From: Streptomyces sp. 846.5
GTDB lineage: Bacteria; Actinomycetota; Actinomycetes; Streptomycetales; Streptomycetaceae
NCBI RefSeq assembly: GCF_004365705.1
Contig: NZ_SOBN01000001.1
Coordinates: forward strand, 3,148,001 to 3,212,000
Reading direction: 5' to 3'
Length of the DNA: 64,000 bases
In this document: piece by piece, positions 52,386 through 64,000 of the stretch
How the letters are laid out: each line of letters begins with the position of its first letter
Numbering within the stretch: position 1 is the stretch's first letter
The notes under the pieces: generated by a model
The model's input: only the letters and a program-made list of their open reading frames with translations
Databases searched by the model: none
What the model was told of the DNA's origin: nothing
Made by a program: the position numbers and the translations under genes

Positions 52386-53678
52386 TCAGCCGTTGGGACT
52401 GCTGCCCGACATGCCTCCGACTGCTGCGCGCCGTCCGGTCCTGCGCTGCTCAAGGGCCGCGATTTCCCGGTCCGTAAAGCCAGCGCGCTCGCACACCTCA
52501 CGGTTGAACGCCAACCGTGGACTTCCGTTCACGGTTTCACCGAACTCAAGCCTGCGCTGGAGTGCGGCCTCCTGAATCTCCAGTACCCGGGCCTCACTTC
52601 CTGCGATCCGGTGCACCCACTTGTTGCCGACGGCCACATGAGTGATCTCGTCGGCGGTGATGAAGTCGTAGAGCTGGGCAGTGGCGTGGTCTCCGTAATC
52701 GCGGAGCCGGGCGGCGTTGGCAATGGCGCCGTCCACACCGAGCCACTCACCGGTCCGCTGGTGCACAGCGAGTCGCAGCTCCAGGGGCAGGTCATCCGTC
52801 ATCTCCCAGATCTGCAAATCGACGGGATCCATTCCGGGACGGCCGCCGAGTTGTATCATGCGCTCGTACAGCATCTGCGCGTGCCGGGATTCGTCCCATG
52901 CCTGGCGTGCCATGTCGAGAATGAATTCCCAAGGCATGGCCGGAAAATCCGCGATGGCTCGGCCGCACGCCTCGATGGTCGGGATCTCGGTGGCCATCAG
53001 CACGCCGTGGACACAGGCCGCTGTGGCGTCGGCATCGTGGACGGCGGTTGGCGGCGGTGCGTCAGGGAGCACACGGAACCTATGGTCGCGCCGAGGCACC
53101 TTGGGATAGTGGTGGCGGTAACCCGGCTCGCCGACCGACCTAGTGCGCTCCCAGGCGGCGGCAGCGTCGTCCATCGGCGTCAGCTCGGGGAAGAGCACTT
53201 GTAGCTGATCCATCACCTCGACCACCGCCGTGATCTGCGCATCCAGATCACTGGCTGAATCGAGCAGAAGGCGCACGGTCGGCTCGTCCGCCACAGGGAG
53301 CGCCTTGACCGCGTGCAGTCTCATGCGACGGGCCAGGTCGCTCTTGAACGCGAAGTACATGCCGTGCAGTCGCGGCATCGTGGCGTCGACACGGGAGAGC
53401 GCGTCGATGTCCGCCGATGAGGAGGTCGACTGCTCCGGATTTATCTGGGGCGACGGGTCCTTGGCGAGCTCCCCGATCCGGCCCCGCAGCGCGGACACCA
53501 TACGGGCATCCCGGTACAGGTGGTCCGCCAGGACCGTCTTCACCTCGATCTCGGGGATGTCACAGGTCCACGATGCCAGAAGGAGCACAGAGAAGTTCAG
53601 TGCGATCGCGAACTCGTCAAGGCTCTGCGCCGTCTCATCGACGGACATGCCGAGCCGGGGGTTGATGTTTGTCAGCAT
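52386..53678 (-). CDS. DUF455-type ferritin-like (diiron) protein of the biosynthetic island
   Basis: A 430-aa protein. The C-terminal half carries a four-helix metal site pattern: MATEIPTIEACGRAIAD, AWDESRHAQMLYERMIQLGG (E-x2-R-H) and FITADEITHVAVGNKWVH (E-x2-H). This fits the DUF455 ferritin-like family. The N-terminal ~190 residues are helical and unassigned. Ligand spacing suggests a diiron oxygenase or a metal-dependent hydroxylase-like role in the pathway; no family member with a known reaction is recalled. It is last on the minus strand of the set, 179 bases after the FMN reductase. Confidence 0.8.
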   Translation of the reverse strand: MLTNINPRLGMSVDETAQSLDEFAIALNFSVLLLASWTCDIPEIEVKTVLADHLYRDARMVSALRGRIGELAKDPSPQINPEQSTSSSADIDALSRVDATMPRLHGMYFAFKSDLARRMRLHAVKALPVADEPTVRLLLDSASDLDAQITAVVEVMDQLQVLFPELTPMDDAAAAWERTRSVGEPGYRHHYPKVPRRDHRFRVLPDAPPPTAVHDADATAACVHGVLMATEIPTIEACGRAIADFPAMPWEFILDMARQAWDESRHAQMLYERMIQLGGRPGMDPVDLQIWEMTDDLPLELRLAVHQRTGEWLGVDGAIANAARLRDYGDHATAQLYDFITADEITHVAVGNKWVHRIAGSEARVLEIQEAALQRRLEFGETVNGSPRLAFNREVCERAGFTDREIAALEQRRTGRRAAVGGMSGSSPNG

Positions 53679-53857
53679 GGGGCTCCGCTCGTGGATTGTG
53701 GTGGTTCCGCCATAGGTGCACGGTCGGTTCCTCCACGTACTTGATGACTGGCCGTGTCAAAGGTGCCGAACGGTCCGGGCGCAGAGAACACCTGCGTTGA
53801 TGATCCCGGTCGTTCGGGAGCGCGTCGAGAGCCGACTCGGTGTCAGGAAGGTGCCTG

Positions 53858-54451
53858 TCAGTAGATGGCGTGCTGTCGCTGCCCATTGGGTGACGGCCCG
53901 CCGGGGGCGGTGTCGCGGCTGGACCGGCTGAGGGCATCGGAGAACTGGGTGACGACGCGGATGAGTTTCTCTTCGGTGGCCGGTTCGACCGTGACACCGC
54001 CGCCCCGGTCGACAGAGACATGCTGGTCAAGGACGAACCTGCCTGGCACGATGTGCCCGGCTCCCATCGAGGACAGTACGGGGCGAAGCGCGTAGTCGAT
54101 AGCCAGCGTGTGTGCGGTGGAACCGCCAACGGCCAGCGGTAGGACGGTCTTTCCGGCCAAGGCGTGCTGCGGGAGCAGGTCGAGGAGGGACTTGAGCACA
54201 CCGGTGTAGGCAGCCTTGTAGACGGGCGTGCCGATAACCACTCCGTCGGCGCGGGCAAAGAGCTCGGCTACCCGGACCATCGCTGGGTGTGCGTAGTCGG
54301 CATGCATCAGAGCGTCCGCTGGGAGTGTACATACGTCCAGCGGGACGACGGTGTGGCCGTGCCCGACGAGCTGTCCGTCCAGGTGGCGCAGTAGCCGAGT
54401 GGTCCGTGCAACCGCAAAGGGACTTCCGGAGACGGACAAAATGGTGCTCAT
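53858..54451 (-). CDS. NADPH-dependent FMN reductase (SsuE type)
   Basis: A 197-aa flavodoxin-fold reductase: ILSVSGSPFAVARTTRLLRH (FMN phosphate loop), ADGVVIGTPVYKAAYTGVLKSLLDLL (flavin-contacting region, read in order) and LPLAVGGSTAHTLAIDYALRPVL. SsuE enzymes make free reduced FMN for partner monooxygenases. The acyl-CoA-dehydrogenase-like enzyme encoded just upstream is the natural partner candidate. GAGGGAG lies immediately before the ATG. Confidence 0.9.
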   Translation of the reverse strand: MSTILSVSGSPFAVARTTRLLRHLDGQLVGHGHTVVPLDVCTLPADALMHADYAHPAMVRVAELFARADGVVIGTPVYKAAYTGVLKSLLDLLPQHALAGKTVLPLAVGGSTAHTLAIDYALRPVLSSMGAGHIVPGRFVLDQHVSVDRGGGVTVEPATEEKLIRVVTQFSDALSRSSRDTAPGGPSPNGQRQHAIY

Positions 54452-54562
54452 GCTCCCTCACGATGCGAAGGCTCCGCCGCGCAGTCGTCAGCACTGCGGT
54501 GCCGCCGGCTACACCGTGGACAGCACCTGGCGGGGCCGGTCACCGGCAGGACGACGGGGGCC

Positions 54563-55759
54563 TCAGGCAAAGCTGACCTCTGGGTCCAGCAGGGCCAGCG
54601 TTCCGTCTACCAAGTTGAGCCGGTCATTGTGGTAATTGAGCGCGGCCGACCGAAGATCCCGCAGCGCCTGCTCCAGTCGGGTGGGAGACTCCTTGAGGTA
54701 GCCGTGCCGCAGGCCCACCGCCTCAACCAGGCCGTCCACCGCCCGGTAGCACTCCTCTGCAGCAGTGATCTTGAGTGCGTTGAGGAGGAGTTGGACCCGC
54801 GGGGTACTCAAATCGTCCGCCGTTTCGACGATGTGGAGGCTGCGCGTGAGCAGTGCGTGCACAGTGTCCAGTCGTCGGCGTGCGACCGACAGCCTGGTGA
54901 GCAGCAGCTCGGAGTTGAGAGCTCTTGCTCCCAAGCCCGTTCCCCTGGTGGTGCGCAGCAGTCCGAGAGTTCGCGACAGCGCTCCGGCAGCGGTGCCCAG
55001 CCAGCACGCGGACCAACCGATATGTGCCGTCGGTCCGAAGACACTGGTTACCACGGCACGGAAGTCACCGTGCCTGCCGACCACTTGATCGCCGGGGATG
55101 CTGCCTCTGAGCCGCAGTGCGACGCTGTGACTGGCACGCATTCCCAGCGATTGCCATTCGCCCGACGCCTCGACCTCCACCTGCGTGCGGGCCGCGTACA
55201 CCAGGGAAGTTTGCTGGGGCGAGACTGCCCCTGGGCTTCGCATGGTCACCAGGAATGCGTCAGCCCGGTCACCACCGGTGACGATCGGCGCCGTGCGGTC
55301 CAGCAGCAGGCGTCCGTTCCTGGCCTTGAGCTCCGCTGTGGTGCTGAGCAACGCTCCTCCGGTGCTCTCCTCGGTAGTGATCGAGGCCAGGTACAGGTGA
55401 CCTGCGGCAACTGCCGGGAGTACTTCCTCGCGCAGCCGCCCGTTGCTGTAGCCCACCAGCGCGGCCACCTGCTGGCAGTGCATGACGAAGATCATCGCAG
55501 TCGAGAGGTCGACCCTGCCGAGTCGAATACCGGCCTCGGCGATATCACCGAGACTGCCGCCAAGGCCACCGTACTCGGTGGGCACGATCAGCCCGAGCAA
55601 CCCGGTGCGACGCATCGCCTCGAGTGCCGCGTCCGGAAAAGCGGCCTCCGTGTCGCAGGACCTGAGGTGCTCGGCGGTCACGGAGGCGACCTCGTCGAGA
55701 GCCGCCGTAACCGCCTGACGCCGGAGCCCGGCATCAACCTCGGAATGGGAGGCGCTCAT
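54563..55759 (-). CDS. Acyl-CoA dehydrogenase-fold flavoenzyme, possible carrier-bound substrate oxidase/monooxygenase
   Basis: A 398-aa ACAD-fold protein: LLGLIVPTEYGGLGGSLGDI, MIFVMHCQQVAALVGYSNG, LASITTEESTGGALLSTTAE and VFGPTAHIGWSACWLGTAAG. Near the C-terminus ordinary ACADs have RD...YEGT, with a catalytic Glu. Here it reads ALRDLRSAALNYHNDRL, lacking that Glu. Loss of the base occurs in flavin-dependent N/C-monooxygenases of this fold, which use external reductases, consistent with the neighbouring SsuE gene. Its ATG overlaps the carrier-protein stop as ATGA, so the two are translationally coupled, and the substrate may ride on that carrier. Confidence 0.83.
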   Translation of the reverse strand: MSASHSEVDAGLRRQAVTAALDEVASVTAEHLRSCDTEAAFPDAALEAMRRTGLLGLIVPTEYGGLGGSLGDIAEAGIRLGRVDLSTAMIFVMHCQQVAALVGYSNGRLREEVLPAVAAGHLYLASITTEESTGGALLSTTAELKARNGRLLLDRTAPIVTGGDRADAFLVTMRSPGAVSPQQTSLVYAARTQVEVEASGEWQSLGMRASHSVALRLRGSIPGDQVVGRHGDFRAVVTSVFGPTAHIGWSACWLGTAAGALSRTLGLLRTTRGTGLGARALNSELLLTRLSVARRRLDTVHALLTRSLHIVETADDLSTPRVQLLLNALKITAAEECYRAVDGLVEAVGLRHGYLKESPTRLEQALRDLRSAALNYHNDRLNLVDGTLALLDPEVSFA

Positions 55760-56016
55760 AGGGAGACCTGGGTTCCGCGCGCGACCGTCACTGCTTCCTG
55801 GACGACGGCCCAGAGACTGCCTGCAGTCGCGAAGGTCCTATCCGTCATTGCCTCGTCGGGTAGCGACACATCGAAGGCGTCCTCAACGGCAAAGAGGAGC
55901 TCAACCGCCTGCATGGAGTCGAGCCCGAGCTCGCGCAACGGGGAATCGCGCGTGATTTCGCCCCCTCCGAGAAACTTCAGAAGCGGTGCGAGGAGTTCAG
56001 TGAATCTCGGGTCCAT
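55756..56016 (-). CDS. Acyl/peptidyl carrier protein
   Basis: An 86-aa carrier: FTELLAPLLKFLGGGEITRD, then LGLDSMQAVELLFAVEDAFD with Ser34 as the phosphopantetheine site. The DSM motif is of the ACP type. It overlaps the decarboxylase 3' end by 20 bases, and AAGGAG precedes its ATG. Its position between decarboxylase and flavoenzyme genes suggests that it carries the substrate of both. Confidence 0.92.
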   Translation of the reverse strand: MDPRFTELLAPLLKFLGGGEITRDSPLRELGLDSMQAVELLFAVEDAFDVSLPDEAMTDRTFATAGSLWAVVQEAVTVARGTQVSL

Positions 56017-57319
56017 GTGCGGTCTCCTTGGGTGCTGGCAGGACGGGGAAAGGGGCAGGGATGCGGACCAGCTCGATACGGGTGACCGCGGCCGGCACGT
56101 CGGGGCGCTCGCTGTCCGTGATCACTTCAGCGGGCAGCGGATGCCCCAGGAAGGCGACAAGACTGGCCGTCAATCCGTAGGCGCCGACGTTGGGAACAGC
56201 CAGGACGTCGCCTGGCCGGAGTCGGGGAAGCACGACATTGCGGGCCCAGGTGTCGAGCGGGGTACACAAAGGACCCGCCACCAGCGTCTCGACTGCGTCA
56301 CCGGCCGCTTGCCGTGTGACTAGGCATGGGCGCAGCTGGGGCAGTCGACGCAGGCCGGACATGCCTCCGAGGTGATTGATGCCTGACTCCAGCAGGACTA
56401 TCGCGCGTCGGTGGGACTCCTTTACATCGACCACGGCGGTGAACAGGGTGCCCGCCGTGGCGACGAGATAGCGTCCGGACTCGAACACCACTTCGGGACT
56501 CCGCGCCCGCCACCCTGGTACATGCTCGTCGAGCAATCCGCCCAGCACCGGTGCCAGCGGGCCCAGCTCAAGGGCGGAGCCCGCCTGGGCGAACGGCGCT
56601 CCGAAACCGCCGCCGAGATCCAAGAGACTGATCTGCACACCGCAGCGGGAAAGCCGCTCGGAAATTCGGTTGGCCGTGCGAAGGGACTGCTGAAACTGCC
56701 CGGCCAGATCCTCGATCCGCGTGATATTGGAACCCATGTAGAGATGCAGCCCGATCACGGTGGCGTGGGGCCGCCCGGAAAATAGTTCGGGCTCATGGAG
56801 GATCCAGCTCGTGTCAGCGCCGAACTGCGACGCCACTCCTGTCATTGTCAGTCCTTGACCAGGGACCGGCTGATCGTCGTTGACGCGGAGAATGCACTTG
56901 GCCACGACACCGTGAGCGGCTGCCAGTCGGTGCAGCTGCTCGATCGCTACCGGCGAGTCCACAGAGAAGAGGCGTACCCCCAGGTTGAGCGCCCGCCGTA
57001 CCTCGTCGTCACTTTTGGCCGGCCCGGTGTAGAGGATCTCGTCCGCAGTCCAGCCCGCGTCCAGCGCCGCAGTCAGCTCCCCTGACGAACATGCCTCCGC
57101 GCGCGTTCCGAGCCCTGCGAGGGTCTGTAGCAGCGCTGGGTGCGGGTTGGCCTTCAGCGAGTAGAAGAGCCCGGAACCGGGCGGAAGCGTACTGACGAGT
57201 CTGCCATGGTTCCGGCGCACTTCCGCGAGGTCGTAAACATAGGCAGGAGTCGACACTCCGGGCGGACAGACGGGCGGGCCCGGCGGGAACGGGTCCTCCG
57301 GCTCTTCAACAGGCGGCAT
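55997..57319 (-). CDS. Type III PLP-dependent decarboxylase (BtrK/VinO-like)
   Basis: A 440-aa fold-type III decarboxylase of the Orn/DAP/Arg family. PLP lysine is Lys56 in LFYSLKANPHP. Others: GTRAEACSSGELTAALDAG, LLDLGGGFGAPF (phosphate loop), VVFESGRYLVATAGTLF and AGPLCTPLDTWARNVVLPRL. The motif CTPLD stands where DAP decarboxylases have CESGD. Homologues working on carrier-bound amino acids are BtrK (glutamyl-S-ACP, butirosin) and VinO (3-methylaspartyl-S-ACP, vicenistatin). Overlap with the carrier gene strongly suggests the same here. Start ATG 57319 overlaps the ligase 3' end by 14 bases. Confidence 0.87.
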   Translation of the reverse strand: MPPVEEPEDPFPPGPPVCPPGVSTPAYVYDLAEVRRNHGRLVSTLPPGSGLFYSLKANPHPALLQTLAGLGTRAEACSSGELTAALDAGWTADEILYTGPAKSDDEVRRALNLGVRLFSVDSPVAIEQLHRLAAAHGVVAKCILRVNDDQPVPGQGLTMTGVASQFGADTSWILHEPELFSGRPHATVIGLHLYMGSNITRIEDLAGQFQQSLRTANRISERLSRCGVQISLLDLGGGFGAPFAQAGSALELGPLAPVLGGLLDEHVPGWRARSPEVVFESGRYLVATAGTLFTAVVDVKESHRRAIVLLESGINHLGGMSGLRRLPQLRPCLVTRQAAGDAVETLVAGPLCTPLDTWARNVVLPRLRPGDVLAVPNVGAYGLTASLVAFLGHPLPAEVITDSERPDVPAAVTRIELVRIPAPFPVLPAPKETAHGPEIH

Positions 57320-58817
57320 GACTGGCCCTTTTCGCGTGCTCGTTCAACGCGGCCCGGTCGACCTTGCCGTGGAAGGTTAGCGGGAGTTCGGGCAGGACAA
57401 CGCAGTACCGCGGGACTTTGAAATCCTCGAGGTCTCGACGCATCAGGGCCAGGACGGCGGAAGCGGTGATGTCGCCGGTCACGAACAGCACGGCGGAGCC
57501 GATTGCGGCCGGTCCCAGCACGGCGGCGCTGCGCACACCGGGGACGGCACGGGCACTTGCCTCGACTTCCAAGGCGCTGATCCGGTATCCGTCCTCCTTG
57601 TACAGGTCGTCCCGCCGGCCCGTGAAGTAGAGGTAGCCCGCGTCGTCGATCCAGCCGTAGTCCCCCGTGCGCAACTCGGGGAAGAGCCCGTCCGCGCGAT
57701 GGAAGCGTGCCGCGGTCAAGACGGGGTCGTTCCAGTAGCCGGTCATCACATGCGGACCGCGAACGACGATCTCGCCGGTTCGTCCCGGCTGCAGGCGCTG
57801 CCCCTCCTCTCCGACGGCGAACACCTCCGTGCCGGGCAGCGGGAGGCCGCAGGACCCTGGTCGCTCGAGGTCCCCGTCCACGGGCATCACTGTCGCCCTC
57901 TTGCACTCGGTAAGGCCGAACATCAGCTGGATCCGCAGCGCAGGAACAGCTTCTCGAAGGGCGTCCAGGATCTCTCCAGGCATCGCCGCGCCAGTATTGG
58001 TGAGCAGGCGGAGCGCCGGCTTGCGGCGACTCCCCCGATTCAGCAACCGGACCAGCATCTCGGCCGTCGAAGGCACGCTTGCGAGCACCGTGGCTCCGGA
58101 GCTGTTCACCGTCTCCAGAAGACGGGGTCCGGTCTCGCCCGGGACGCAGAGCCGGACCTGCGCACCTGCTGCGGCTGCCAGGAACAGCTGGTAGAGGCCG
58201 TAGTCGAACGACAGCGGCAGCGGGTTGAGGACGACGTCCTCGGACCGGTAGCACAGCACCGACTGGATCGCCTGGACGGCGAAGAGCAACTGGGCGTGCG
58301 TGGTGACCACGGCCTTGGGCCGTGCTGTCGTACCAGACGTGTAGATGAGGCAGACCGGGTCGACACTCAAGGGCGGCTCGGAGGACAGCAGGGGCGGAGC
58401 GTCAGCAAGGTCGGCCATGCCCTGGACGAACGCAGAGGAAACCGCCGCGATGCCTCTCGCAGCGGCGGCCTCGCGGGCCTCGGCCGCGTCGCTGATCAGC
58501 AGGATCGGAGTGCAGTCGGACAGGACATAGTCGAGTTGCCCACCGCGGACCTGGTCGTGTAGGACGCAGAAGACCGCCCCGATTCTCGAGGCGGCGTGGA
58601 CCAGCGACGGAATCAGCGCTGCAGCGCCCGAACCCACGACGAACCGGCTGCCTCGGGACATGCCTGCGTCGGCCATCCATCCGGCGAGCCGGAAGCTGGC
58701 CGCTTGCAGCTCGGTGTAGGTACGGACGACGCTGCCGGCAGTCACGGCGACCTGGCCGGGCCACTGCTCGGCCGCACGGTCGAGCAGGTCATGCAACAGG
58801 ACGGCGTCAGCCTTCAT
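57306..58817 (-). CDS. Stand-alone adenylating (AMP-forming) ligase 1
   Basis: A 503-aa ANL-superfamily ligase. Core motifs: LIYTSGTTARPKAVVTTHAQ (A3), LMFGLTECKR (A5), LRTGDYGWIDD (A7), GRRDDLYKEDGYRISALEVE (A8) and catalytic Lys485 in TFHGKVDR (A10). No carrier domain is fused. Gene order ligase-decarboxylase-ACP points to loading of an amino or carboxylic acid onto the adjacent carrier. GAGGAGG five bases before ATG 58817. The substrate pocket is not typical of a fatty acyl-AMP ligase, but specificity cannot be read by eye. Confidence 0.88.
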   Translation of the reverse strand: MKADAVLLHDLLDRAAEQWPGQVAVTAGSVVRTYTELQAASFRLAGWMADAGMSRGSRFVVGSGAAALIPSLVHAASRIGAVFCVLHDQVRGGQLDYVLSDCTPILLISDAAEAREAAAARGIAAVSSAFVQGMADLADAPPLLSSEPPLSVDPVCLIYTSGTTARPKAVVTTHAQLLFAVQAIQSVLCYRSEDVVLNPLPLSFDYGLYQLFLAAAAGAQVRLCVPGETGPRLLETVNSSGATVLASVPSTAEMLVRLLNRGSRRKPALRLLTNTGAAMPGEILDALREAVPALRIQLMFGLTECKRATVMPVDGDLERPGSCGLPLPGTEVFAVGEEGQRLQPGRTGEIVVRGPHVMTGYWNDPVLTAARFHRADGLFPELRTGDYGWIDDAGYLYFTGRRDDLYKEDGYRISALEVEASARAVPGVRSAAVLGPAAIGSAVLFVTGDITASAVLALMRRDLEDFKVPRYCVVLPELPLTFHGKVDRAALNEHAKRASHAAC

Positions 58818-58853
58818 GATGCCTCCTCATTCTCGTGGACGTGTCAGTCAGCG

Positions 58854-59801
58854 TCACAGGCTCGGGTGCCCCTCCAAGTACTCCACTGCCACGAGCGCCC
58901 ACGTATGCGGGCTGGTCGCCAGCAGCAACAGGCGGTCGCCCTCGGCGAGAGCTCCCTCGCGCGCCAGACCGTCGAGGCCGATCATCAGGTCTGCGGAGAA
59001 GCAGTGTCCGATCTCCGCGACGCGGGGAGCATAGGTGTCGGTGAGGTCGAAACCGCAGATTGCCGAGAAGATCTTCCTCGTGCTTTCCGCGTAGTTTCCG
59101 GTGAGCAGGAAACGAAAGCCTCGGCGCGCGTCGGGAAGCTCGTCCTCGAGTCGGGCCCTGGCCAGGTTGATTCCGGCTTTGAGCGCCCGTACACCGAGAA
59201 GCGGTGACGCACTCGGCTCCAGGGCCTGGCTGTGCGTCCCGATTCCCAGAACACGGAAGCTCGGACCGATCGGTGCCGCGGTGACGAGGCAGGAGGCGGC
59301 ACCATCGCTCATGACGATCCCCCCCGCTGTTTCAAAACGCGTTCCTCCGACCACGCAGTCGCTGGTCACCAGGAGCACTGTTGAGAGCCGCTCCGCCCGG
59401 AGCGCGTTGCGGGCCGTCCGGAGCGCGGCGGCGAAGTTCCCGCAGCCGCTGCCGCCGACCAGCACTGGCGAGGTCGTGGGCAGGGATACTGCGCGAAGTA
59501 TCGCCAACGCGTCCCGGCTAGGCGTTGGTTCGGCGCTGGGCGTGTCGGTGGCATGGACGACGAGATCGACGTGCGGATGGCCCGCCGAAGCCAGCGAGTC
59601 GACGGAACTCGCTGCGGCGAGCCGCGAGGCAGGCCCGTCGGCGACTCTGCAGTACCGGAAGCCGCCTTGCTGCAGGGCAGCCAGATTGTCCTGGACCAGC
59701 GGGTCGTCGAGATCCGAGAGTGGCTTCTTCGCGCCCAGACGGTAGGCCGTCGAGGAGAGGTAGACGTCGTCGAGGCATGGGGTCCGGCTGCCGCGGTTCA
59801 C
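58854..59801 (-). CDS. Ketoacyl-ACP synthase III-like (thiolase-fold) enzyme with rearranged active site
   Basis: A 315-aa protein starting at GTG 59801, which overlaps the condensation-domain stop as GTGA with GGAGG six bases upstream. It has a KAS III fold: VDLVVHATDTPS, active-site Cys120 in GGSGCGNFAAALRTARNAL, then FLLTGNYAESTRK and RVAEIGHCFSADLMIGLDGL. FabH uses Cys-His-Asn. Here the His position appears to be Asn236 and the Asn position His266. Non-elongating KAS III-like acyltransferases (CerJ type) also depart from the triad. It may transfer or release an acyl group instead of making a C-C bond. Confidence 0.78.
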   Translation of the reverse strand: MNRGSRTPCLDDVYLSSTAYRLGAKKPLSDLDDPLVQDNLAALQQGGFRYCRVADGPASRLAAASSVDSLASAGHPHVDLVVHATDTPSAEPTPSRDALAILRAVSLPTTSPVLVGGSGCGNFAAALRTARNALRAERLSTVLLVTSDCVVGGTRFETAGGIVMSDGAASCLVTAAPIGPSFRVLGIGTHSQALEPSASPLLGVRALKAGINLARARLEDELPDARRGFRFLLTGNYAESTRKIFSAICGFDLTDTYAPRVAEIGHCFSADLMIGLDGLAREGALAEGDRLLLLATSPHTWALVAVEYLEGHPSL

Positions 59802-61204
59802 CCAGTCCTCCGGAGCCCCGCTCGGCGATCCAGTCCTGCGAGGGCCTCGGCGTCGTGCAGATCCAAGGCTCCGACGGCGGCTTCGACCAGCAGTCTCTCC
59901 ACGCCTCTCAGCAGCAGTTCGATGTCCTGCTGCGGGATGAACGCCGTGTCGGCGAGTAGATGCAGGTGGCAGCGGTCCGGGGCGAAGCTGGTGTGGGCGA
60001 AGAACCTGGTGTCCTGACGTTCCCATGCGCCGACCAGGACCACCTCGGTCTGCTCCATGAGTTTCCGCAGGGCGCCGGCCGACCCGTCGGTCTGCGGCAA
60101 GTCGTCCCAGTGGTCCTGAAGCCGGGCATCGTTGAAGTACACCGTGAGATCCGGGTCCGTGCCGCCGAAGTCGTGGGTCACCTCCGCGATCACGGTGTCC
60201 AGGGCGAGCGGATCGTACTGGGAGAAGCGGTAGGAGTTAAGCGCGCTGTGGAAAGCCGCACGAACTGCTGCGTCGAATGAACCCTCGTGGACGTCCAGTA
60301 CGACGATCGAATTCTGGATCATCGCGCCGACCATCCTTCGGGAGCGGTCATCAGGGCGGTTCCGCGCGATGAGCTGCAAGCCCACCGTTCGCTGGCCGGT
60401 GTAGCGGCCCAGGAGAACCGATGTCGCCGCGAGCAGGACCGCGCCTGTGCTGACCTCGCAGCGCCTGGACAGGACCGTCGCTGCGACGGCCGCGGCGGTG
60501 GATTCGAGCCGCAACCGCACGAAGCGCTGCCCGGCAGGCTCGTGGGCCGGCGCCGCAAACAGTGACAACGGCATCTTCCGCAGGGTCCTCCGCCAGTAGT
60601 CAAGCGCCCTCCTCCCCCGTGCCGCACCCGGCCCGTCGCTCTCATAACGTGCCTGGTCCTGGGGGTGCCATGTCGGCGCGGCCGCCTCAGTACCGGCGAA
60701 CAGGGCCCGCAGATCCTGTTCGACCTCGTTGACCGCCCAGAAGTCGACCGCGAGATGTGAGAACACCAGCGCGAGGTGGGTCGGCCGCTCCCCGTCCAGG
60801 ACCAGCGCGCATCGGACCGGCCATTCCTGATCGTGCTGAAACGGCTCGGACGCCAATGCCAGGGCAAGTCGCTCAGCGACGCCTTGCCCCCCTCCCGGTT
60901 CGGAGCGGTAGTGGGGGACTGCCAGTGAGCCCTCTGCGGCGATGTCCTGCCGCGGGCCTGCGGACGACATCGAGAAATGCGTCCGCAGCGCCTCGTGCCT
61001 GGAAAGCAGCTGACCGATCGCGTCGACCACTGCTGCCGCTGTCAGCCCTGACGGCAGGGAGAGGACCCGGCTGAGGTTGAAGTAGTGGGCCTCTTCGCCG
61101 AGCCATTGGATCGGCTTCCAGATGGCGCGCTGGCCCCAGGTCATGGCCTCGGCCCCAGCTCGGCCACCATGAAAATGAGATCTTCCGGAACGGTACGGGT
61201 TCAC
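59798..61204 (-). CDS. Free-standing NRPS condensation domain
   Basis: A 468-aa condensation-domain protein. The core motif HHxxxDG appears as SHLAVDF at 149-155: His150 and Asp154 are kept, while the first His and the Gly are changed. Other parts: MTWGQRAIWKPIQWLG, RHEALRTHF, YTGQRTVGLQLIARNRPDDR and NSIVVLDVHEGSF. It starts at GTG 61204, two bases after the upstream carrier stop. It probably joins an acyl or aminoacyl unit on one carrier to an amine on another. The changed Gly may reflect an unusual acceptor. Confidence 0.88.
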   Translation of the reverse strand: MNPYRSGRSHFHGGRAGAEAMTWGQRAIWKPIQWLGEEAHYFNLSRVLSLPSGLTAAAVVDAIGQLLSRHEALRTHFSMSSAGPRQDIAAEGSLAVPHYRSEPGGGQGVAERLALALASEPFQHDQEWPVRCALVLDGERPTHLALVFSHLAVDFWAVNEVEQDLRALFAGTEAAAPTWHPQDQARYESDGPGAARGRRALDYWRRTLRKMPLSLFAAPAHEPAGQRFVRLRLESTAAAVAATVLSRRCEVSTGAVLLAATSVLLGRYTGQRTVGLQLIARNRPDDRSRRMVGAMIQNSIVVLDVHEGSFDAAVRAAFHSALNSYRFSQYDPLALDTVIAEVTHDFGGTDPDLTVYFNDARLQDHWDDLPQTDGSAGALRKLMEQTEVVLVGAWERQDTRFFAHTSFAPDRCHLHLLADTAFIPQQDIELLLRGVERLLVEAAVGALDLHDAEALAGLDRRAGLRRTG

Positions 61205-61206
61205 AA

Positions 61207-61479
61207 TCAGATTCCTGTCGGGTGCTCCAGTCGAGGGACCGGCCGCTCGGCCCGCTCAAGGGCGGACAGTGCTTCGGCAAACTCCTGGAAATTCCTTGCA
61301 TCGAGGAGCAGGGGAAGATCGATTTGAAAGCCGAGGTCCTGCTCCAGGCGAAAGACCAGTTCGACCGCGGTCAGCGAGTCCCCTCCCAGGGAGAAGAAGT
61401 CGTCCATAGGGCCGACCCGCCGTTGGAATACTCCTCCGGCCGCTTCCGCGACCGTGGGAAACATTGATTCCGCAGTCAC
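61207..61479 (-). CDS. Peptidyl carrier protein
   Basis: A 90-aa carrier from GTG 61479, with GAGGAG six bases upstream; the start overlaps the preceding stop as GTGA. The phosphopantetheine motif is DDFFSLGGDSLTAVELVFRL, with Ser35. The GGDS form is of the NRPS PCP type, unlike the DSM-type carrier at 55756. It lies directly before the condensation-domain gene, its expected partner. Confidence 0.92.
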   Translation of the reverse strand: MTAESMFPTVAEAAGGVFQRRVGPMDDFFSLGGDSLTAVELVFRLEQDLGFQIDLPLLLDARNFQEFAEALSALERAERPVPRLEHPTGI

Positions 61480-61844
61480 CGCGACTCCTCGGGCGGTAGG
61501 GAGACCAGTAGCTTGCACACGAGGTCGTGCACATCGGCCTTGGATGCGGTCCGAATTTTGACAAATTCACTGTGCTTCACGAGCGTTCCTGTCACGGCAT
61601 GGATCCCGCCTCTATCAATCGCAACCGCCGCACAGGAAATCTGCAGGCCAGGCGAATTTCCGATCCTGATGAGAAAGAGCCGCCCGAACCCATCGGTGGT
61701 CCGTGCCATCCATGCGTGCATTCGATCACTGCCGGCGTCGACAAATGATATCGATGTCCGGCCCTGCAGAAATTCTTCGCGTGACATGGACCGAAGGCCC
61801 GCGCCACCCTTCCCGACTACGCCTAGAAGTACCCTGATTGTCAT
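61476..61844 (-). CDS. Orphan 122-aa protein leading the carrier operon
   Basis: An unrecognised, probably beta-rich protein: MTIRVLLGVVGKGGAGLRSM, RTSISFVDAGSDRMHAWMAR, GFGRLFLIRIGNSPGLQISC and KHSEFVKIRTASKADVHDLV. Its stop overlaps the PCP start as GTGA, so it is translated in the same unit. Start is uncertain: ATG 61844 follows AGGA with short spacing, and ATG 61787 would trim 19 residues. Its coupling to a carrier gene makes a pathway role likely. Confidence 0.62.
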   Translation of the reverse strand: MTIRVLLGVVGKGGAGLRSMSREEFLQGRTSISFVDAGSDRMHAWMARTTDGFGRLFLIRIGNSPGLQISCAAVAIDRGGIHAVTGTLVKHSEFVKIRTASKADVHDLVCKLLVSLPPEESR

Positions 61845-61935
61845 TCCTGTTTTCGCGTCCCGTCCATGCCAGGCGCCATAAATCGCACTCTTCGCCCGAT
61901 GGTTCCGATGCCTGCCCCGGAGGGGCGTTCGAAAT

Positions 61936-62139
61936 TCAGTCCCAGATCCAGCTCGCCGTCTCGGCTACGGCCCCCGCCGCGGACACACGGGCGTGAGCAG
62001 GCTGGTCCGAGTTCTGGAGCCCATTTAGTGCGAGTGCGAGCAAGGCAACTACAGCCAGTGCGCACCCGGCGAGAGCCGCCCTGGATCCAGCCAGGATGTT
62101 CGAGGCAGTCGTGTCGGTTGATGCGGAGATGCCACTCAT
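61936..62139 (-). CDS. Small single-pass membrane peptide (67 aa) at the head of the operon
   Basis: ATG 62139 has AAGGAA six bases upstream. The product has a short polar N-terminus (MSGISASTDTTASN), one hydrophobic helix (AALAGCALAVVALLALALNG) and a polar tail ending AVAETASWIWD. There is no lipobox or obvious peptidase site. It is 91 bases upstream of the orphan 122-aa gene. It could be a membrane anchor, a small immunity/transport helper or a precursor peptide; nothing in the sequence decides this. Confidence 0.55.
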   Translation of the reverse strand: MSGISASTDTTASNILAGSRAALAGCALAVVALLALALNGLQNSDQPAHARVSAAGAVAETASWIWD

Positions 62140-62543
62140 TGAGTTTCCTTAACCATTCCGTGACTATGAATTGTTCGCAGCCGTTGTGCTGCCCTTGCTC
62201 CCCAAGACTGACTGAAGTCGGCAGGCGACGTCGAGCAGGGGACCGGTGTCCACAAGCTGCACGTCCACAGGTGCTGCAGGCCGGGGAGGCAATCCATCGG
62301 AAATCGCCGCGCTATACCGCACATATCAGGCGCATCCATTTCAATCGGCATGACGGGCGCAGCGGGCTCTCATCCCGGCCCCCGACCGAGACCTGTTGAC
62401 GTGCAGGTTGTGGACACCGACTGGATACTGTTGCAGCTTTGGCAGCATGGCGAGGCTTACCAGACCGACGCGGTACGGCCGTGAATCCCCAGCGAAAGCC
62501 GTCGAGCTGTCGATGGATCGGTCAGATGAAGGAGGACATTCTC
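62140..62543. other. Divergent intergenic region of the island
   Basis: About 400 bases between the small membrane peptide gene (minus) and ligase 2 (plus). It is less GC-rich than flanking DNA and must hold the divergent promoters. TTGACG at 62398 is a possible plus-strand -35, but no well-spaced -10 was seen. A 71-aa minus frame here has poor codon usage and was not accepted as a gene. Confidence 0.4.
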
Positions 62544-63950
62544 TTGAACCCCTACGCCTGGTCCCCATGGCGAACAGCCGCCGTCGATCCTCGGCGCCCG
62601 GCCGTAGTGGTGCGTGACCGGTCCTGCAGCTTCGGCGAACTCACCGACAGAGCCGACGAGTTCTCCCGCACACTGCTGGAGTACGGGGTGCGCGACGGTG
62701 AGCTCATCTGCTCGACACTCCCACCCGGACCGGACTTCTTCGCCCTCGCACTGGCCTGCCTGCGCTCCGGCTTCGGGCTACTGCCAGTCGACAGGGAGTT
62801 CCTGGAGGGGCCCGACGGACTTTCAACGGTGCAGGAGGCGGCTCCCTGCCTGCAGGTTCACGAAAACTTCGGAGCCTCTGACTGTCCGATATTCGTGCGC
62901 TCGCAGGGCCTCGGGCCAGCAGCAGCCGATGACCGGCCACACCCACGCCTCGGAGTCCGCAGCGGCTACCTGGCCTTTGTCACATCTGGGACCACAGGTG
63001 CACCGAAGGTGGTCGTACGCAACCGTCCCTGGTACCCCTACAACGGCGTCGCCGTCATGGAGAAGTACGCCGCGGGCCTGGGATTCGGCCCCCATGTCAT
63101 GGCGAATCCCGCCTTCCATCTCGGCACGCTGGGTCCGGCCCTGTACGCCCTGCAGGCCGGCAGCCCCGTCGTCGTCCTCGACCGCTGGAGCGTTCCCCGT
63201 CTGATCGAAGTCGTCGATCGCTACCGGGCAGCGAGCCTCTTCCTCTCGCCGGATCTCCTCCTGGACGTCACCGCATCGGGGCAGTGGCCGAGCCACCGTC
63301 CGAACGTCGTCTTCCACGCGGGGGCGGCATGTCCACCGGGCGTCAAGCGCGAGGCCATCCGGCTGATGGGGCCGGTTCTCCACGAGTACTACGGGACTTC
63401 CGAGGGGATCGTGAGCGAGATCACCACCTCCGAATGGCTAGAGCACCCCGGATCCGTCGGCCGCCCGCTTCCGGGAGTCGAGGTCCGGATCCAGACCGAC
63501 GGACAGGAAGTCCACGTGGGGGAGCCCGGGAGCATCATGGTGCGCCGACGCTCCGTCGACCAGGGGAATGGGGCGGAGCACCTGGCCGACACCGGGGACC
63601 TGGGGTACCTGGACACGGGCGGGTACCTGCACGTCCTCGGCAGGGCCGGGGAACAGGGCAGCATCGAACGCGCCCAACTGGAGCACCAGATACGCGCACT
63701 CCAGGGAGTGGCCGACGCAGTACTGCTCCATTCACACGAGCAGGAGCAACGAGGATTCTCCTGCTACGTGGAAACGGCAGGAGACCGTTCCGCCCTAGCT
63801 CAGGCCATCGAATCGCTGGTCGCCGGGACATCGAAGGCTGTGCGGACGCACATCGGGCCGATCGGCAGCTTCGCCCGCACTCCCAGCGGAAAGCTCCATC
63901 TGTCACAGATCGCAGGCCAGGACAAGGAAAGGGTAGGGACAGGGCAGTGA
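62544..63950 (+). CDS. Stand-alone adenylating (AMP-forming) ligase 2
   Basis: A 468-aa ANL ligase. Motifs: LAFVTSGTTGAPKVVVRNRP (A3), LHEYYGTSEGIVSEIT (A5), LADTGDLGYLDTGGYLHVLG (A7/A8) and the catalytic lysine in RTPSGKLHLSQIAG. The TTG at 62544 is chosen because AAGGAGGA ends seven bases before it; the alternative in-frame ATG at 62526 would absorb that site into the coding region. It is divergent from the minus-strand set and is followed without a gap by another gene. It likely activates the second building block. Confidence 0.84.
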   Translation: MNPYAWSPWRTAAVDPRRPAVVVRDRSCSFGELTDRADEFSRTLLEYGVRDGELICSTLPPGPDFFALALACLRSGFGLLPVDREFLEGPDGLSTVQEAAPCLQVHENFGASDCPIFVRSQGLGPAAADDRPHPRLGVRSGYLAFVTSGTTGAPKVVVRNRPWYPYNGVAVMEKYAAGLGFGPHVMANPAFHLGTLGPALYALQAGSPVVVLDRWSVPRLIEVVDRYRAASLFLSPDLLLDVTASGQWPSHRPNVVFHAGAACPPGVKREAIRLMGPVLHEYYGTSEGIVSEITTSEWLEHPGSVGRPLPGVEVRIQTDGQEVHVGEPGSIMVRRRSVDQGNGAEHLADTGDLGYLDTGGYLHVLGRAGEQGSIERAQLEHQIRALQGVADAVLLHSHEQEQRGFSCYVETAGDRSALAQAIESLVAGTSKAVRTHIGPIGSFARTPSGKLHLSQIAGQDKERVGTGQ

Positions 63951-64000
63951 CGGACCAACTTCACCAGCCTGCCGTGACATATAGGACCGCAGCGGCAGAA
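63947..64000 (+). CDS. Start of a further island gene, cut by the window edge
   Basis: GTG at 63947 overlaps the ligase 2 stop as GTGA, and AGGGACAGGG precedes it. Eighteen codons are visible, reading MTDQLHQPAVTYRTAAAE. Too little remains to assign a family, but the overlap indicates translational coupling to ligase 2. Confidence 0.6.
   Translation, partial: MTDQLHQPAVTYRTAAAE

Follow-up and report, generated by a model that had tools for sequence, protein, structure and literature searches.

We analysed a biosynthetic locus of Streptomyces sp. 846.5 (genome of 9.03 Mb, five contigs) that begins at position 52386 of a stretch of 64,000 nucleotides (C1:3148001-3212000), hereafter the window, and runs past its right edge. 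The locus encodes stand-alone adenylating ligases, an acyl carrier protein (ACP), a peptidyl carrier protein (PCP), a pyridoxal phosphate (PLP) decarboxylase and a flavoenzyme with the acyl-CoA dehydrogenase (ACAD) fold. Few lipopeptides containing dehydro-beta-alanine were found in the literature, and three described systems bear on this set of genes. For bolagladin, according to the excerpted text of the report, deletion of the decarboxylase gene bolN abolished the product, deletion of the ACAD gene bolQ led to beta-alanine congeners replacing dehydro-beta-alanine, and N-acylation by a homologue of beta-ketoacyl-ACP synthase III (KAS III) was proposed (PMC7756342). For AFC-BC11, reported to be antifungal, the excerpts describe AfcQ as loading L-Asp, AfcP as decarboxylating L-Asp on the carrier AfcK, AfcA as a fatty acyl-AMP ligase (FAAL) and AfcL as a KAS III-like acyltransferase with Cys, His and Asp; a partial reconstitution covered the ligase, the decarboxylase, the carrier, the FAAL and the KAS III-like protein, the assembly proceeding without a condensation domain (PMC12186527). 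For the olenamidonins, reported to be antibacterial, the KAS-like proteins OleH/AutS were suggested to join acyl-CoAs to dehydro-beta-alanyl-ACP (PMC11204786).

We propose that the enzymes of the Streptomyces locus form a freestanding assembly line, which builds an N-acylated unit of beta-alanine type. We hold this reading with moderate confidence; we infer all substrates and the order of the steps from sequence.

Gene content of the window

Gene families were assigned by Pfam and NCBIfam profile scans. The families, the gene order and the key residues were observed directly. The following features were recorded between positions 52386 and 64000.

52386..53678, minus strand: DUF455 ferritin-like protein of 430 amino acids, with an extra N-terminal domain and a DUF455 domain (PF04305, 108 bits)
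53858..54451, minus strand: NADPH-dependent flavin mononucleotide (FMN) reductase of SsuE type (TIGR03567, 202.7 bits, cut-off 164)
54563..55759, minus strand: ACAD-fold flavoenzyme, proposed beta-alanyl-ACP desaturase or hydroxylase (PF02771/PF08028)
55756..56016, minus strand: freestanding ACP with a DSM motif (PF00550, 42.1 bits), overlapping both neighbours
55997..57319, minus strand: type III PLP decarboxylase, proposed isoaspartyl-ACP decarboxylase (PF02784/PF00278; best PDB match BtrK)
57306..58817, minus strand: stand-alone ligase 1, VinN-like, proposed L-Asp (beta-carboxyl):ACP ligase (best PDB match 3wvn)
58854..59801, minus strand: KAS III-like protein, proposed acyltransferase (PF08545, 24.2 bits, cut-off 24)
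59798..61144, minus strand: discrete condensation domain with SHxxxDF replacing HHxxxDG, start possibly at 61204 (PF00668, 82.2 bits; 4znm alignment)
61207..61518, minus strand: freestanding PCP with a GGDS motif (PF00550, 47.5 bits)
61476..61844, minus strand: doubtful orphan open reading frame (ORF) of 122 amino acids, without Pfam match, with a GC content at the third codon base (GC3) of 0.64 and a 43-base overlap with the PCP gene
61936..62139, minus strand: possible small single-pass membrane peptide of 67 amino acids (hydrophobic stretch, mean 2.33 over 19 residues)
62526..63950, plus strand: ligase 2, AMP-binding, acyl/aryl-CoA-ligase-like (PF00501, 130.8 bits)
63947..64000, plus strand: FAAL, starting inside the window and ending at 65740 (NCBIfam FAAL families; FAAL structures in the PDB)

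From the DUF455 gene to the PCP gene (52386-61518), the genes form a run on the minus strand in which several overlap by 4 to 20 bases; the overlap between the KAS III-like gene and the condensation-domain gene is 4 bases. Ligase 2, in the opposite direction to this run, also overlaps the FAAL gene by 4 bases. As judged from its composition, the orphan ORF is uncertain as a gene, its GC3 being lower than that of the larger genes and similar to that of the PCP gene (0.65). The 67-amino-acid ORF is plausible as a real membrane peptide from its sequence, and a possible ribosome site (AAGGA) lies six bases upstream of its ATG.

A first-pass annotation of the window had already listed the DUF455 protein, the FMN reductase, the ACAD, the ACP, the PLP decarboxylase, the KAS III-like protein, the free condensation domain and the PCP, and Pfam and NCBIfam agree with it for each of them. 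Its label of a two-ligase pathway has to be corrected, as the FAAL at 63947-65740, seen with the right flank, is a third adenylating enzyme. The membrane peptide that it counted is plausible; the reality of its orphan protein is uncertain, given the missing Pfam match and the overlap with the PCP gene. It was right that the cluster continues past the right edge: on extending the sequence rightwards, genes run to 73925. It was also right that no modular non-ribosomal peptide synthetase (NRPS) or polyketide synthase (PKS) is present in the window. The genome has 37 Ketoacyl-synt_C matches, all of them outside the window and its 38-kb right flank, and the lone condensation domain is the single one of its 10 Condensation matches located in the window or this flank. 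The other Condensation matches are found on contig C2 (eight, in frames of 2,860-4,763 amino acids) and about 196 kb to the left (one). At about 529-706 kb and 356-378 kb, C2 carries 31 ketosynthase matches, which lie in very long frames, together with the eight condensation-domain matches. From these, a large array of modular PKS genes and a modular NRPS are predicted on that contig.

Proposed pathway and evidence for its steps

In the proposed pathway, ligase 1 would activate the beta-carboxyl of L-aspartate and load it on the ACP, and the PLP decarboxylase would strip the alpha-carboxyl to yield beta-alanyl-ACP, which the ACAD would oxidise, most likely to dehydro-beta-alanine. The FAAL would activate a fatty acid, and ligase 2 would activate another building block, an acid or amino acid. 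Joining this block, the acyl chain and the beta-amino unit would fall to the KAS III-like protein together with the lone condensation domain and the PCP. Finally, the epimerase, PseB, PseG-like and glycosyltransferase-like genes of the right flank would contribute a sugar to the end product, and the paired ATP-binding cassette (ABC) proteins would export it. A more detailed version is also conceivable, in which the product would be a glycosylated N-acyl-dehydro-beta-alanyl (lipo)peptide or amino-sugar conjugate, a paired mobile condensation domain and KAS III-like acyltransferase would replace the NRPS, the DUF455 protein would act as a di-iron oxidising enzyme and the cassette would be mobile across unrelated pathways. 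We regard this version as tentative and rather doubtful.

The best PDB matches of ligase 1 are 3wvn and 3wv4 (333 bits for 3wvn), listed as a non-ribosomal peptide synthetase, which we take to be VinN. The VinN residue spacing printed in PMC7756342 fits the 3wvn chain with a constant offset of 16. According to the excerpts of that report, the residues of VinN proposed to recognise its substrate are Asp230 and Ser299/Arg331, for the amino and the carboxyl group, and the bolagladin authors used Asp230 and Arg331 to argue for aspartate (PMC7756342). Asp230, Ser299 and Arg331 correspond to Asp205, Thr275 and Arg307 in ligase 1, and Asp205, Lys306 and Arg307 are identical in all 64 aligned ligases. 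Ligase 1 thus appears to keep two of the three substrate contacts, Ser being replaced by Thr throughout. For the decarboxylase, the match to BtrK reaches 177 bits.

In the KAS III-like protein, Cys120, His266 and Asp271 are invariant among the 3 aligned sequences. Its GHxxxxD motif aligns with ChlB3 (7eqi), a weak match, and the protein presumably lacks the His of FabH at its usual place, with the FabH position as we assume it. Of the HHxxxDG motif, the condensation domain retains the second His as well as the Asp. The best NCBIfam match of ligase 2 is PRK12406 (129 bits), against 64.5 bits for AA-adenyl-dom.

The DUF455 protein displays Glu231, Glu236, Glu263-x-x-His266, Glu311 and Glu344-x-x-His347 as invariant residues (5 aligned sequences), and its predicted model is poor, with a mean predicted local distance difference test score (pLDDT) of 54.7. 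It was detected in 1 of the 100 genomes searched, its own, and PF04305 scored above cut-off in 5 out of 198 genomes. Among loci L179-L182, those of three genomes (G113, G188 and G016) have a DUF455 protein that adjoins a separate small protein; in the window protein and at L182, the DUF455 domain and the small protein seem from sequence to be fused.

The four-gene cassette in other genomes

We scanned genomes for relatives of the decarboxylase and obtained 75 loci, of which 69 were gene-called and 6, of low GC, were left out; the gene caller is a home-made script that performs poorly near 60% GC. All four cassette genes (ligase, decarboxylase, ACP and ACAD) are present in 53 of the 69 loci, and ligase and decarboxylase are adjacent in 61. 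The contiguous order ligase-decarboxylase-ACP-ACAD on one strand was found in 46 loci, mostly beside different genes. The closest relatives, compared over their best segments, share 60% (ligase), 66% (decarboxylase) and 69% (ACAD) identity with the window proteins. The cassette seems to be mobile and to move between pathways, because its order is held in these 46 loci, mostly amid other genes, and the accessory genes of the window are absent or rare in the 69 loci.

Relatives of the condensation domain occur in 11 loci, and those of the two ABC proteins, ABC1 and ABC2, in 7 and 5 loci, respectively. Two protein families, f5 and f8, accompany the cassette in 48 and 30 loci, and no window protein belongs to either of them. 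We read both as probably BtrH-like, a family that Pfam does not name for them: in L018, the one locus scanned with Pfam, f5 has a weak carrier domain only and f8 has no match. This locus further encodes a PALP-family enzyme, an aldehyde dehydrogenase with its own carrier, a second ACAD, a phosphopantetheinyl transferase and a flavin reductase. A large family of loci (L009-L049 and others) consists of the cassette with f5/f8, a PALP-family enzyme, an aldehyde dehydrogenase and a carrier, and its Micromonospora loci add genes read as inositol-type.

In the bacterial family of the strain, decarboxylase relatives (E <= 1e-70) were identified in 65 out of 394 genomes; short loci were retrieved for 30 matches and wide regions from 20 of the 65 genomes. 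In a Plantactinospora genome, condensation-domain and KAS III-like genes are found together, and in one instance relatives of ABC1 and ABC2 stand in the same row. Among the 9 genomes of chosen loci searched for the KAS III-like protein, only this one possesses it, in 3 copies. Across the phylum, the protein is present in at least 1 of 396 genomes (its own); misses are likely, since only five candidates per genome were scored.

One 34.8-kb contig labelled Burkholderia multivorans WS-FJ9 (L050) carries an actinobacterial-type cluster with a decarboxylase 60% identical to that of the window, which reflects either a horizontal transfer or a contaminating contig. Of 65 genomes of this genus, 10, including that of L050, encode a decarboxylase relative (E <= 1e-45). 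From the other nine genomes, nine short loci (L095-L103) were taken, seven of which have a ligase relative beside the decarboxylase; no locus among them, or among the wider stretches taken for seven of the nine (L107-L113), was identifiable as bol or afc. In one of these stretches (L111:4611-14915, genome G418), a compact cluster groups ACAD-like proteins, an ACP, four putative KAS III-like ORFs, a ligase and a decarboxylase, and from its gene content it is possibly another freestanding line.

Extent of the cluster and right flank

Right of the window, up to 73925, we found genes encoding a PseG-like protein (TIGR03590, 112 bits, under the cut-off of 153.6), an NAD epimerase, PseB (465 bits, above the cut-off of 407.8), a glycosyltransferase-like protein and two ABC proteins. 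The FAAL that spans the edge matches NCBIfam FAAL families below their curated cut-offs, and FAAL structures were matched in the PDB. The next block (74137-84071 in window coordinates) encodes an aspartyl-tRNA synthetase (AspRS), a Rieske protein, a Gfo/Idh protein, a TauD-type oxygenase, a radical S-adenosylmethionine (SAM) enzyme, an amidohydrolase, a second TauD-type oxygenase and an ABC protein. Except for the Gfo/Idh gene, it is found in another genome (G531) in the stretch covered, with an AspRS 71% identical, and the ligase-decarboxylase cassette was not found in the 20 kb examined there. The end of the cluster is placed at about 73.9 kb because this block is conserved independently.

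We infer from their position that the sugar genes (65.7-70.2 kb) belong to the cluster. In a locus of the same genus (L172, genome G481), PseB- and epimerase-like genes adjoin a decarboxylase and an ACAD, which gives mild support to this membership. The same locus holds carriers, a PIG-L deacetylase, a weak radical SAM match and NTP_transf_5.

The AspRS of the block is a second, archaeal-type copy in the genome, and a role in self-resistance is possible. We treat this as a lead and no more, because this type of AspRS is present in 24 of the 61 genomes searched (own included) and six of these genomes have no other block gene within the roughly 4 kb examined. The literature matches listed contain no cluster that combines an AspRS with a radical SAM enzyme. 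A second, shorter copy of the block is located in the same genome (L125:8489-13260, C1 about 4438489-4443260), with genes encoding a TauD protein, an amidohydrolase (called in part), a radical SAM enzyme (69%) and an Asp/Asn-tRNA-synthetase-like protein (38%).

Alternative readings of the locus

Several observations weigh against a freestanding line for an N-acylated beta-alanine-type unit. The position of VinN Ser299 is Thr275 in ligase 1 and Thr in all 64 aligned ligases, and the condensation domain has SHxxxDF instead of HHxxxDG. The sugar genes are tied to the cluster by proximity only. None of the 69 loci contains relatives of the DUF455 protein, the FMN reductase, the orphan ORF or PseB, while the PCP has a best match in one locus and the KAS III-like protein a relative in three. 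In a tree of 80 decarboxylases, with cluster labels that we defined, the window sequence falls in a 12-row set whose other 11 members are labelled BtrH-like (100/96), and the four clusters with condensation-domain and ABC genes are placed away from this set. Unlike bolagladin, the locus has no citrate synthase or modular NRPS, and the likeness to bol, afc and aut is drawn from published descriptions, not from protein-sequence alignment. Moreover, the enzyme that forms the dehydro-beta-alanine of AFC-BC11 is not shown in the excerpted text (PMC12186527).

Two further points concern the flavoenzyme and create the main uncertainty. Hydroxylation instead of desaturation is possible, because both usual catalytic Glu positions are lost and an SsuE-type FMN reductase gene is next door. 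These positions are occupied by Tyr376 (56 of 57 aligned sequences) and Ala245 (47 of 57, otherwise Gly); we mapped them by reading the alignment, with residue numbers assumed for medium-chain acyl-CoA dehydrogenase and isovaleryl-CoA dehydrogenase. His94, His246, Trp249 and Trp253 are invariant in the same 57 sequences. The predicted model is confident (pLDDT 90.7), and the sequence and fold matches comprise dehydrogenases as well as the FMN monooxygenases TdsC, DszC and KijD3. The fold matches also include the carrier-protein enzymes ColB1 and AnaB, and their scores are close, so that the ranking does not separate dehydrogenases from monooxygenases. The ACAD and the reductase could thus form a two-component monooxygenase that hydroxylates ACP-bound beta-alanine to an isoserine-like or N-hydroxy unit, by analogy with BtrO and BtrV of butirosin biosynthesis. 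We consider this outcome unlikely, yet the most serious of the competing explanations.

The cassette might also load glutamate and build a GABA-type (gamma-aminobutyrate) unit in the butirosin manner, as BtrK is the nearest decarboxylase and many sister clusters carry the f5/f8 proteins. However, ligase 1 is nearest to an aspartate-type ligase, the window is devoid of f5/f8 members, and no Pfam match to a luciferase-like monooxygenase was found in the 18 genes scanned between 52.4 and 73.9 kb. This reading seems to us improbable.

A reading as a macrolactam starter cassette of vicenistatin type, which would supply a PKS elsewhere in the genome, agrees with the VinN-like ligase and with the 37 Ketoacyl-synt_C matches, 31 of them on C2. 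Moreover, 5 of the 20 wide family-genome regions pair a related ligase-decarboxylase with frames of more than 2,200 amino acids, possibly such synthases. Nevertheless, it leaves the KAS III-like, FAAL, condensation-domain and PCP genes unexplained and, with Ketoacyl-synt_C missing from the window and its 38-kb right flank, is very improbable. The first-pass annotation had also raised the possibility of scattered primary-metabolism paralogues without a joint pathway; several of the families do have primary-metabolism members, but the genes overlap in one direction and the cassette order is held in 46 of 69 loci, so that this idea is hardly credible.

If the freestanding-line reading is true, the cassette, in its 46 loci, points to a unit of beta-alanine type for dozens of clusters, and the locus would show how a peptide bond is built without an NRPS module, by a lone condensation domain together with a KAS III-like enzyme.

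Comparison with known systems

The first readings to be tested were the butirosin-like and the vicenistatin-like one, and both were demoted. The butirosin side chain depends on BtrI/J/K/O/V/H, with a BtrJ-type ligase and with BtrO as a luciferase-like monooxygenase. The window shares its decarboxylase family, whereas its ligase 1 is of another type. The vicenistatin genes VinN/VinL/VinO resemble the window by the ligase family and the predicted recognition of aspartate; by contrast, the vicenistatin starter primes a PKS, and none lies beside the window genes, the 38-kb right flank included. The likeness to starter cassettes put forward by the first-pass annotation is therefore real, as the VinN-type ligase and BtrK indicate, but it missed the best precedents, bolagladin, AFC-BC11 and olenamidonin. 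Solanimycin was rejected as a precedent because its residues are dehydro-alpha-alanine in the excerpted report (PMC10204066).

In bolagladin biosynthesis (bol, Burkholderia gladioli), BolO, BolC, BolN and BolQ match ligase 1, the ACP, the decarboxylase and the ACAD by family; as described in the excerpts, bol differs by BolH, an NRPS of four modules, and by a fatty acid derived from citrate. The afc cluster of Burkholderia, as described, resembles the locus by a stand-alone Asp ligase, a PLP decarboxylase, a single carrier, a FAAL, KAS III-like acyltransferases and no modular NRPS. It differs by three KAS III-like proteins, by a citrate-synthase/methyltransferase branch and by doing without condensation domains in that description, whereas the window has a condensation domain, a PCP, a further ligase, the DUF455 protein and sugar genes. 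No Pfam match to a citrate-synthase homologue or an O-methyltransferase was found in the 18 genes scanned (the 67-amino-acid ORF lying outside the scan). In Streptomyces, the peptide backbone of the aut and ole products is made on an NRPS. The autucedine, olenamidonin and enamidonin pathways resemble the locus by a lipid chain on dehydro-beta-alanyl-ACP, for which a KAS-type ligation is proposed, and they differ by that backbone, Phe-Dpr-Dpr-Gly (PMC11204786).

The earlier observation is partly confirmed as a whole and its interpretation partly supported. It matched the locus to no known product. The genomes sampled yielded no cluster of identical gene content, a result that makes no claim about print, but the idea that nothing close is known does not stand. 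From gene families and residues, the closest precedents are apparently the bolagladin and AFC-BC11 machinery and, as proposed by their authors, olenamidonin/autucedine, closer than butirosin and vicenistatin. The biosynthetic logic is known and this combination of genes is new, the unusual elements of the window being the discrete condensation domain, the PCP, the rare DUF455 protein and the sugar genes.

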